Origin: Qipengyuania sp. JC766
GTDB lineage: Bacteria > Pseudomonadota > Alphaproteobacteria > Sphingomonadales > Sphingomonadaceae
DNA: 64,000 bases
Direction of reading: 5' to 3'
Assembly (NCBI RefSeq): GCF_040717445.1
Contig: NZ_JBFEFL010000001.1
Span: forward strand, 1,932,001-1,996,000
Below, in pieces: positions 40,747 through 56,808 of this stretch (position 1 is its first letter; every line of letters begins with the position of its first letter). The position numbers and the translations under genes were made by a program. The notes under the pieces were generated by a model. That model ran no database searches. It had not been told where the DNA came from and was given only the letters and a program-made list of their open reading frames with translations.

Positions 40747-41921
40747 TGCCCGCGCAGGCGGGCGAGCGTCCCTTTCGGCACCAGGATCAGCGCTTCGCCG
40801 CGACCGGTCATGCCGCCTGCGATGAGGCGCGAATCCTCGCCCGCACCCCAGAACGTATCGAACCGGTTGGTGCCCTTGATCGCGCCGCCGGTATCCTGCG
40901 CGACCCACAGGCCGTTGGCTTCCGGCCGGTCGAGTTGCAGCCAAACCGGAGCGCCATAGGGCACGAAGTTCGGATCGACCGCGACCGAGTTCTCGCGCGA
41001 AACCGCGACGCCGAGCGAGCCAAGCGGCCCGGCACCGGTCAGTTCGCGGAAGAAGATCCAGCTTTCGTTGAGGCGCATGAGATCGCGGCCCGCCTGCGGG
41101 TTCTCGCGAATATACTGCATGATGCCCTGCATGGAGCCGGAATACTTGCCGGGCCCTTCGCCCAGCAGCCCCCGCTCGCGCATAACGCCGCCGATGCCGG
41201 TATAGGCATGGCCGTTCTGGCCGGCATAGCCGATGCGCACGACATCGCCTTCGGGCGTGATGAGGCGGCCCGAACCCTGGATCTGGAGGAAGAAGACCTC
41301 GACCGGATCCGCAGCCCAGGCGATTTCCAGCCCGCGCCCTTCCAGCGCCCCGTCCTCGATTTCGGCCCGCGTGTAGTAAGGCACGTGGTTGCCGAATTCG
41401 TCCGTCCGGCCGAGCGGCGCACGCCCCTGTCGTTCGCTTTCGGGCGTGTCGGCGGGCCATGCGCGGACGAGATCCGCGGGCATCCCGTAGATCGGCACTT
41501 CGTAGCCCGGACGGCGGGTGCGAGAACCGCGGATCTCGGGCTCGAAATAGCCGGTCGCGAACGCCTTGCCGTCAGCGACGCGGACGGTTTCGAAATGGGT
41601 GACGAAGAAGGCGCGCGGATCGCCGGTCCAGCTGCGTGCCGCGTCGCACGGCACCTGCCAGTCGACGGGCCGCGTCAGGCCCGAGGCGTCTTCCCGGCTG
41701 GTCGCCCAGCCGCAGCTGCCGACGAACGCGGTCAGCGCGCCGGCTGCATCGTCGCGGCTTATCGGAAGAGCGGCGACGCCCTGCGCAGCGAACAGGGCGG
41801 TGCCCCCGGCGGTCGTCGCCACAGGGGCGATCGCCCCTCCGGCCCCGCCTGCGGGAATGACGGCACAGGCGGAAAGCAGCGCGAGGCCGCCCATCGCGAA
41901 GAGGCGAAGCGCGGCGCGCAT
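40743..41921 (-). CDS. mltA: Membrane-bound lytic murein transglycosylase A
   Basis: 392 aa. A lipoprotein signal ending in LLSAC (Cys19) predicts outer-membrane anchoring. The MltA barrel contains QIQGSGRLITPEG and MQGIMQYIRENPQAG, and the C-terminal 3D domain has WVAQDTGGAIKGTNRFDTFWG with the catalytic Asp. It cleaves peptidoglycan glycan strands to 1,6-anhydro products. It starts at 41921, 9 bp after the Tim44-domain gene. Confidence 0.93.
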   Translation of the reverse strand: MRAALRLFAMGGLALLSACAVIPAGGAGGAIAPVATTAGGTALFAAQGVAALPISRDDAAGALTAFVGSCGWATSREDASGLTRPVDWQVPCDAARSWTGDPRAFFVTHFETVRVADGKAFATGYFEPEIRGSRTRRPGYEVPIYGMPADLVRAWPADTPESERQGRAPLGRTDEFGNHVPYYTRAEIEDGALEGRGLEIAWAADPVEVFFLQIQGSGRLITPEGDVVRIGYAGQNGHAYTGIGGVMRERGLLGEGPGKYSGSMQGIMQYIRENPQAGRDLMRLNESWIFFRELTGAGPLGSLGVAVSRENSVAVDPNFVPYGAPVWLQLDRPEANGLWVAQDTGGAIKGTNRFDTFWGAGEDSRLIAGGMTGRGEALILVPKGTLARLRGQ

Positions 41922-54497: not shown

Positions 54498-54526
54498 TTG
54501 ACGATTCGGAGCAGCGGACCTATGTG
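54498..54526 (+). promoter_or_regulatory. Sigma-70-type promoter of rpsT
   Basis: TTGACG (54498-54503) and TATGTG (54521-54526) are 17 bp apart, about 87 nt before the rpsT ATG. The mutM stop is 33 bp upstream. This fits independent expression of rpsT. Confidence 0.5.
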
Positions 54527-54612
54527 GCGCGCTTTCCGGCGGGCTTCCGCCGTTCCCAGAGACCACCGAGAGACCATCCGGTCGCCACTCGCGGCCCGAG
54601 ACAAGGACGAAC

Positions 54613-54873
54613 ATGGCCAACACGCCGCAAGCCCGCAAACGCATCCGTCGCAACAATCGCCGTGCGGAAATCAATACCGCCCGCATGAGCCGTATCCGCA
54701 GCTTCCTGAAGAAGGTCGAATCGGCCGTCGATGCCGGTGACAAGTCTGCGGCGTCCGATGCCCTGAAGGCTGCGCAGCCGGAACTGGCACGCGGCGTTGC
54801 GCGCGGCGTGCTTCACAAGAACACGGCGGCGCGCAAGATGTCGCGCCTGTCGAAGCGCGTTTCCGCGCTCTAA
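54613..54873 (+). CDS. rpsT: 30S ribosomal protein S20
   Basis: 86 aa, highly basic and helical: [17 protein letters not shown], then [16 protein letters not shown] and the C-terminal [20 protein letters not shown], all typical of S20, which binds 16S rRNA early in 30S assembly. Gene order rpsT then dnaA is common in Sphingomonadales and other alphaproteobacteria. Confidence 0.98.
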
Positions 54874-54923
54874 GCCGACATTGCTGACCGGCCGACCCCG
54901 GACGGGGTATCGGCCTTGTTCGA

Positions 54924-54958
54924 AAACGGGCTCGCGCAGCTTCTGCGCGGGCCCGTTT
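54924..54958 (+). terminator. Candidate terminator after rpsT
   Basis: AAACGGGC (54924-54931) pairs with GCCCGTTT (54950-54957), with an inner GCGCAG/CTGCGC stem closed by CTT. Long GC-rich stem, but only TTT follows, so termination may be partial. Another hairpin, CCCCGG/CGGGG-like, lies just upstream (54895-54908). Confidence 0.45.
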
Positions 54959-55003
54959 CGCGTTGTCATAATGGCTCCGATACCGGCTTCGCGACAACGC
55001 AAG

Positions 55004-55254
55004 GAATCCTCGCGATTCGCATTTGAAAACCGCGATTGTGCAGGACAAATTACGAAGAAAATTCATGCTTTCCAGACCATTAAACGAAGGTCTGCGGGGT
55101 TGGTCGCTGTCAAGCAAACATTGTGACAGTAAAATGAAAATGTTTGCTTGCCTGACGCGTCTCCACCTGCCTATCTGAATGTCCGCTCGGTGCTGGACGG
55201 AACCGGGCTCACAAAGACCGAAACGCGACACACAGTCGAATCGAATCACGATTC
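55004..55254. promoter_or_regulatory. dnaA control region: five GANTC sites, a 12-bp palindrome and a promoter-like pair
   Basis: In the 468 bp between rpsT and dnaA the GANTC motif of CcrM occurs at 55004-55008, 55014-55018, 55238-55242, 55243-55247 and 55250-55254. A perfect inverted repeat, CAAGCAAACATT (55111-55122) and AATGTTTGCTTG (55139-55150), brackets TAAAAT (55130-55135), with CTGTCA (55107-55112) 17 bp before it. A second, nested repeat CTGTCA/TGACAG spans 55107-55129. This looks like a methylation-sensitive, repressible promoter for dnaA. No gene was found here, and no clear DnaA boxes. Confidence 0.55.
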
Positions 55255-55341
55255 CGGCGACGGGACAACCGTGTTTGCGGAACGGGGGGTAATGACGGAG
55301 AGCCGGCGGGGTCGCGCCGGACTGACAGAAGGTCGAGTGGA

Positions 55342-56808
55342 ATGGCGAATGCAAACGGGAAAGCGACCGCCAAGCTGGAAGAGGCGGACGCGATGAGTGC
55401 AGAGGAAATGGAAGCGGTGAACCTGGCGGCCGACTGGGCCGACATCAGCACCGGCCTGCGCAAGGATCTGGGGCATCAGCTTCACAGTCAGTGGATCAAG
55501 CCGATCCAGCTTGGCGGTTTCTGCAAGCAGACGGGCACTCTCGATCTCTACCTGCCGTCCGAGTTCTACGCCAATTGGGTCCAGGACCGCTTCGCAGACC
55601 GCCTCTCGCTGGCCTGGAAGATTGCGCGCAGCGAAGTTCGCACCGTGCGCATTCAGGTGCACCCGGGCCGGCGCAAGCTGCAGGATCTCGACCTCAACGA
55701 CGGGCGCCGCGCGGCGAACGACGGGGCCGACACCAGCATGATCGCAGTGAGCGCCGGCACGATGGGCGATGCGGGTTTCACGTCTTCTGTCGGGCTCGAC
55801 CCGACGCTCACCTTCGCCGCATTCGTGACCGGCGAAGCGAATATCCTTGCCTGCAATGCCGCGCAGCGCATGGCAGCCACGGAACAGCCGCAGTTCAGCC
55901 CGCTCTACATCAAGGGCGCGACCGGACAGGGCAAGACGCACTTGCTGCACGCCATCGGCCACGCCTATCTCAACGCCCATCCGCGGGCGCGCATCTTCTA
56001 CTGCAGCGCGGAGCGCTTCATGGTGGAATTCGTGCAGGCGCTGAAGAGCGGCAAGACGCTCGAATTCAAGGCGCGCCTGCGCGGTTTCGACCTCCTGCTG
56101 GTCGACGATATCCAGTTCATCATCGGCAAGGCGTCGGCGCAGGAAGAACTGCTTTACACGATCGATGCGCTGCTGGCCGAAGGCAAGCGGCTGGTCTTCG
56201 CAGCGGATCGCGCGCCTCAGGCTCTGGACGGCGTCGAGCCGCGGCTTCTGAGCCGCCTCTCCATGGGTCTCGTCGCGGACATCCAGGCGGCCGACATCGA
56301 GCTGCGCCGCAAGGTCCTCGAATCAAAGCTGACACGCTTTGCTCCGCTTAGCGTGCCCGAGGACGTCATCGATTTCCTCGCGCGCACCATCACGCGCAAC
56401 ATCCGCGAACTGGTCGGCGGACTGAACAAGCTGGTCGCCTATGCGCAGCTCACCGGGCAGGAAGTCTCGCTTTCCCTCGCCGAGGAACAGCTGACAGACA
56501 TACTGAGCGCCAATCGCCGCCGGATCACCATCGACGAGATCCAGCGCACCGTCTGCCAGTTCTACCGGATCGACCGGAGTGAGATGAGCAGCAAGCGCCG
56601 TGCGCGTGCGGTTGTTCGTCCGCGGCAGGTGGCAATGTACCTCTCCAAGGTCCTGACCCCTCGCAGCTATCCGGAAATCGGACGCAAGTTCGGCGGACGC
56701 GACCATTCCACGGTCATCCACGCCGTCCGCCTGATCGAGGATCTGCGTCAGCGGGACGCGGACATGGACGGCGACGTGCGCAGCCTGCTGCGCCAGCTCG
56801 AAAGCTGA
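55342..56808 (+). CDS. dnaA: Chromosomal replication initiator protein DnaA
   Basis: 488 aa. Domain I (residues ~25-110; HSQWIKPIQLGGF), a flexible domain II, the AAA+ domain III with Walker A GATGQGKTHLLHAIG (about residue 195), Walker B LLLVDDIQFI and sensor 2 FAPLSVPEDVIDFLA..., and the DNA-binding domain IV with GRDHSTVIHAVRLIE. It opens oriC. The start at 55342 is assumed; the ATG at 55393 (MSAEEMEAV) is in frame and could be used. No strong Shine-Dalgarno for either. Confidence 0.97.
   Translation: MANANGKATAKLEEADAMSAEEMEAVNLAADWADISTGLRKDLGHQLHSQWIKPIQLGGFCKQTGTLDLYLPSEFYANWVQDRFADRLSLAWKIARSEVRTVRIQVHPGRRKLQDLDLNDGRRAANDGADTSMIAVSAGTMGDAGFTSSVGLDPTLTFAAFVTGEANILACNAAQRMAATEQPQFSPLYIKGATGQGKTHLLHAIGHAYLNAHPRARIFYCSAERFMVEFVQALKSGKTLEFKARLRGFDLLLVDDIQFIIGKASAQEELLYTIDALLAEGKRLVFAADRAPQALDGVEPRLLSRLSMGLVADIQAADIELRRKVLESKLTRFAPLSVPEDVIDFLARTITRNIRELVGGLNKLVAYAQLTGQEVSLSLAEEQLTDILSANRRRITIDEIQRTVCQFYRIDRSEMSSKRRARAVVRPRQVAMYLSKVLTPRSYPEIGRKFGGRDHSTVIHAVRLIEDLRQRDADMDGDVRSLLRQLES

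Follow-up and report, generated by a model that had tools for sequence, protein, structure and literature searches.

The window analyzed here is a 64-kb stretch of DNA at positions 1,932,001 to 1,996,000 of the larger contig of a 2.70-Mb genome. It carries the gene for the replication initiator DnaA, which lies 468 nt beyond a gene that we take to be rpsT, for ribosomal protein S20. In the upstream sequences of relatives that we read, rpsT also precedes dnaA. The gap between the two genes holds a hairpin and a perfect inverted repeat, and we list these features with the basis on which each was placed.

54613-54873, + strand: rpsT (ribosomal protein S20), the upstream gene, an 86-aa ORF
54916-54970, + strand: GC-rich hairpin after rpsT, from the RNA fold of 54874-54975 (-57.1 kcal/mol, z -4.8)
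55107-55129, + strand: overlapping 6-bp inverted repeat CTGTCA-N11-TGACAG, whose first half overlaps the conserved GTCAA described below; read from the sequence
55111-55122, + strand: left arm of the palindrome, CAAGCAAACATT, read from the sequence
55123-55138, + strand: 16-nt spacer, GTGACAGTAAAATGAA, containing TAAAAT, read from the sequence
55139-55150, + strand: right arm, AATGTTTGCTTG, the end of which overlaps the predicted -35 region, read from the sequence
55342-56808, + strand: dnaA, replication initiator, a 488-aa ORF

Judged by its predicted fold, the GC-rich hairpin probably ends the rpsT transcript; the terminator scan did not report it, for want of a T run. Nor did that scan return an intrinsic terminator at the palindrome, where the stem is A/T-rich and is followed by CCTG. 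On re-reading the sequence, we find the palindrome as the initial annotation had described it, with 12-bp arms that are exact reverse complements 16 nt apart. The TAAAAT of the spacer (55130-55135) does lie 17 nt past CTGTCA (55107-55112), and the latter does form a second, overlapping repeat with TGACAG (55124-55129). The centers of the two arms are 28 bp apart. As a single DNA strand, the region is predicted to fold strongly, at -13.4 kcal/mol with a z score of -4.0; the corresponding RNA fold has a z score of -2.5.

By number, the palindrome is not remarkable at the scale of the window. In the 64 kb, two inverted repeats are perfect over 12 bp or more with 3-60 nt between the arms, the second at 41468/41527; across 40 first-order Markov resamples of the window, such repeats averaged 1.3 and never exceeded 4. 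For its location, the repeat is unusual, as one of this kind arose within the 468-nt rpsT-dnaA gap in 40 of 20,000 resamples, and in 9 of 20,000 when the stretch was narrowed to the surrounding 150 nt, with the caveat that the location was picked after the repeat had been seen.

For comparison, we collected 109 dnaA loci of relatives, comprising 29 relatives from 98 genomes (our own included), in every one of which dnaA was matched (98/98), and the best 80 among the matches listed. The closest DnaA relatives among those matches belong to the Erythrobacteraceae. Upstream DNA was oriented by the DnaA match. Two loci whose contig starts at dnaA (L015 and L025), one with just 170 nt of upstream sequence (L079) and three near-duplicates were left out, and the 103 distinct upstream regions thus kept from 106 usable ones represent the best relatives of two collections.

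Most of these regions share a common layout, GTCAA-N31-36-(C/G)TTG-N20-22-TA, which matches 94 of the 103 and is missed in its strict form by nine, with no match in the reversed control (0/103). This expression makes no use of the TATTT box that is described below. The same expression matches the window, at GTCAA (55109), CTTGCC (55147) and TA (55172), and the spacing of 33 nt from GTCAA to CTTG recurs in 72 of 97 scored relatives. The promoter features that follow from the comparison are given here.

55109-55113, + strand: GTCAA, conserved upstream anchor of the dnaA promoter, from the comparison of relatives
55120-55125, + strand: site of the relatives' TATTTC, where the window reads ATTGTG, from column counts over 68 relatives with equal spacing
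55147-55153, + strand: predicted -35 region CTTGCCT, with TTG conserved, from column counts and the layout expression
55171-55177, + strand: predicted -10 region CTATCTG, with TA at 55172-55173 in conserved columns, from column counts and the layout expression

The palindrome sits in the dnaA promoter region, as had first been proposed. Because the layout of the relatives is kept in the window, the dnaA promoter here is probably the standard one of the family, and we predict an RNA start about 11 nt past the TA, near 55184. The -10 candidate, whether read as TATCTG or as CTATCT, is a moderate match only. Sigma-70 promoters of alphaproteobacteria, including those of Novosphingobium aromaticivorans, are reported often to have no T at -7 (PMC8407463). 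The predicted promoter shares with that description the TTG in the -35 region, the TA in the -10 region and a T at -7 that is dispensable; it differs in that its start comes from conservation, whereas the starts in that study were mapped (PMC8407463).

Between the anchor and the predicted -35 region, the relatives carry a further conserved box. The pattern GTCAA-N4-8-TATTT is present in 102 of the 103 upstream regions, with TATTTC in 94, and in the column counts from the 68 relatives with equal spacing a T tract usually comes after TATTTC. The full family element reads GTCAA-N6-TATTTC-T tract-N9-CTTGC-N17-TA (55109-55177 and the homologous places in L004-L113). Searched with the same expression, the window has no TATTT 4-8 nt past its GTCAA; one other relative lacks it, L054, which has TATTG. 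The DnaA tree places the window within a 21-row clade (support 97/91), and all 20 of its clade mates show TATTTC in the segments listed, so the loss is derived and occurred on the window's own branch.

A looser form of the element, GTCAA-N4-7-TATTTC-N21-26-TTG, is found in 307 of 397 family genomes; the match in our own genome lies elsewhere and not at dnaA. The element is absent at dnaA from all 20 upstream regions taken from other families of the order. Across the class, 18 of 190 genomes show the pattern, in diverse sequences that do not resemble those of the family and with a reversed control that looks similar in size by eye. On this and on its absence from the other families of the order, we rejected a class-wide element. 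The element thus appears, as far as these searches reach, to be confined to one family, and we found no description of it in the literature searched, outside of which most subscription papers lie. Farther upstream, the window and most relatives also retain another conserved block, TTAAACG...CTGCGGGGTTG (55081-55102); its CTGCG occurs in 79 of 93 segments, which had themselves been chosen by TATTTC.

The symmetry of the palindrome is not a family trait. In the homologous 50 nt, the longest perfect repeat is at most 6 bp in 102 of the 103 relatives and 10 bp in the remaining one, L014. That locus belongs to another genus, and its 10-bp perfect repeat upstream of dnaA, around CGAAATATTTC, is unrelated and lies in the same element. 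Allowing up to 3 mismatches, we found the palindrome in none of the 396 other family genomes, none of which is of the same genus. Our own genome has a single site even with 9-bp arms and 3 mismatches. The search of the genome and its relatives that the initial annotation had suggested thus places the palindrome only at its own dnaA among 397 family genomes. There is likewise no excess of half-sites in the window, where 2 are found, both from the palindrome itself, and 1.1 are expected. By this comparison, the palindrome is a lineage-specific rewrite of the family-wide dnaA upstream element.

Two features of the relatives' element recall known alphaproteobacterial regulation. The first is the box itself. 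The ros-box is reported to have the halves TATATTTCA/TGTAATATA (PMC9779718), and proteins of the MucR type to bind an A/T-rich core with a T-A step, for example AAATA (PMC5693944). The TATTTC of the relatives (TATATTTCA in some) matches one half of the ros-box (PMC9779718) and, read on the opposite strand, carries the AAATA core (PMC5693944), although conservation in the family does not extend to the other half of the ros-box. A Ros/MucR protein is encoded in 20 of the 20 genomes searched, our own included (PF05443, 172 bits). From 54874 to 55341 of the window, both the ros-box half-site TATATTTCA (with 1 mismatch) and the AAATA core are absent. The match to half of the ros-box had pointed to MucR as the protein acting at the conserved box, but none of the 8 mucR upstream regions read contains TATTTCA, and we keep MucR only as a lead to the family's factor.

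The second feature is the anchor, which reads GAGTCAA, a GANTC site, in 84 of the 103 relatives. In Caulobacter, MucR is reported to shield GANTC sites (PMC5172544), and methylation by CcrM to activate the dnaA promoter (PMC2877005). The box of the relatives likewise adjoins a GANTC site, and their shared GAGTC at the upstream anchor resembles the GANTC control of dnaA in Caulobacter. The window differs from the latter, with TGTCAA in place of GAGTCAA and thus TGTC at the anchor, and its GANTC sites lie elsewhere in the gap. Of the five such sites in the 468 nt between rpsT and dnaA, three (55238-55254) fall in the predicted leader RNA. The genome encodes CcrM-type (RAMA domain) and GcrA proteins, and GANTC is about fourfold rarer in the window than expected (77 versus ~311), so that the methylation circuit usual in alphaproteobacteria seems to be in place.

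Taken as a whole, the account that we favor, and consider reasonably likely to be right, is that a standard family promoter lies downstream and that the upstream element has been rewritten into the palindrome. The palindrome would sit directly upstream of the promoter, at approximately -73 to -34, in the interval that holds GTCAA-N6-TATTTC and the A/T tract in the relatives. GTCAA, CTTGC and the distance between these two anchors were kept in this lineage, whose element has neither TATTTC nor the GANTC site at the anchor. We suggest that the complementary ends of the interval, CAAG...CTTG, grew into the 12-bp perfect repeat. Three or four of the twelve pairs already come with the conserved ends CAA(G) and (C)TTG, and by our estimate eight further pairs are improbable by independent change (~0.27 to the eighth power); template-switch copying of one arm would complete them at once. 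Template switching is thus a plausible origin for the identity of the arms. This process is reported to perfect short imperfect repeats and to be able to invert spacers, reversibly, with a yeast case in which a 4-bp repeat was extended to 11 bp (PMC8604942), and inverted repeats perfected in this way are also described in a second report (PMC7202029). The present case differs from those examples (PMC8604942, PMC7202029) in that the event is an inferred one, with no bracketing sister sequence. The interval is still A/T-rich and may serve as an UP-like contact for RNA polymerase. Most likely, the promoter works as it does in the relatives, with an upstream element that is altered but still A/T-rich.

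The palindrome could instead be a true operator, at which a lineage-specific dimeric or tetrameric regulator represses or activates dnaA in place of the factor that acts at TATTTC, a reading to which we give a real but clearly lesser chance. The perfect 12-bp symmetry within a short promoter interval, its rarity in local resamples and the far shorter symmetry of nearly all relatives at the homologous place argue for it. The eight in-register pairs beyond the anchors could mean that a binding site was selected for and that the repeat is not a by-product. As one would look for in the site of a dimeric repressor, the repeat overlaps the promoter core, with its right arm reaching the predicted -35; a protein on that arm would matter because of this overlap. 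However, arm centers 28 bp apart are wide for a simple dimer, and conservation or recurrence of the site was found neither in our own genome, which has no second copy and no surplus of half-sites in the window, nor in the 396 other genomes of the family. The rpsT-dnaA gap also matches none of eight operator consensuses and neither of two motifs of the MucR type; DnaA box, CtrA, IHF, LexA and CRP/FNR consensus sites are all absent from 54874-55341. The initial annotation had not recognized the palindrome as a known operator, and it indeed fits none of the consensuses tested.

Any function of the palindrome would be exerted as duplex DNA, in the form of a symmetric protein site that touches the -35 region, and not as an RNA switch. 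An RNA attenuator or riboswitch would need both stems in the transcript, but the predicted start falls beyond the two arms, and no Rfam family reaches its gathering score in 54500-55600. The palindrome would not be transcribed from the predicted promoter, and the competing RNA stems drop out for that reason.

A further possibility, which we regard as improbable, is that template switching both homogenized the arms and inverted the spacer, so that the T-rich box has moved to the opposite strand, perhaps reversibly. Inverting the 16-nt spacer brings TTTCA into exact register with the family box and raises the ungapped score of the interval from -42 bits in the present order to -9.7 bits, and both arm homogenization and reversible spacer inversion are reported for template switching in the study cited above (PMC8604942). 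Compared with single-base shuffles, the spacer alone gives P 0.007, but with dinucleotide shuffles this becomes P 0.06, and in gapped alignments the inverted form barely beats shuffles (P 0.10 and 0.17 against 96 of 97 relatives, L027 having been dropped, and 0.11 to 0.67 in a further comparison). Moreover, a single orientation of the spacer is seen, and its present order aligns well to L089, a locus that the DnaA tree sets well apart from the window. With these mixed statistics, spacer inversion is not established. L089 and L113, which are sisters in the DnaA tree, have an A tract and TGAAAAT in place of the T tract, and thus carry the quasi-palindrome TATTTCA...TGAAAAT. The best local alignment of the window to this pair scores 44.5 against a null mean of 35.9 (P 0.02). 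An ancestry resembling L089/L113 was rejected, as the tree puts both far from the window, and we treat the likeness as coincidence or convergence.

Still harder to sustain is the promoter of the initial annotation, with CTGTCA as -35 and TAAAAT, inside the palindrome spacer, as -10, at which a regulator on the palindrome would block polymerase or two exclusive RNA stems would form. This pair is the sole consensus match in 54500-55800 (9/12, with 0.2 expected), yet CTGTCA-N17-TAnnnT occurs in 0 of the 103 relatives. CTGTCA overlaps, and is accounted for by, the conserved GTCAA anchor, and the conserved -35 and -10, at or past the end of the right arm, put the promoter about 40 nt farther downstream. 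The two RNA stems also fail on their own terms: RNA made from TAAAAT would begin near 55142, past the left arm. The initial annotation had named transcription starting downstream of 55150 and a palindrome that is not conserved as findings that would speak against it; the predicted start, near 55184, lies beyond that position, and the palindrome has no counterpart in the 396 other family genomes searched. By comparison with the relatives, that promoter reading is probably wrong in place. Least credible of all is a reversible, replication-borne switch of dnaA, in which template switching between the perfect arms would flip the 16-nt spacer, the TTTCA/T-tract box would change strand and cells with either orientation would differ in dnaA transcription.

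To our knowledge, little is known about the control of dnaA transcription outside Caulobacter. Here, one family of the Alphaproteobacteria shares a dnaA element, GTCAA-N6-TATTTC-T tract, and one lineage is without its core, with a perfect palindrome in its place. On the evidence of the alignments, the palindrome region is a lineage-specific variant of the conserved dnaA promoter. The palindrome alone is minor, and the conserved element is the better question; for the function of that element, the lineage of the window is a natural mutant.
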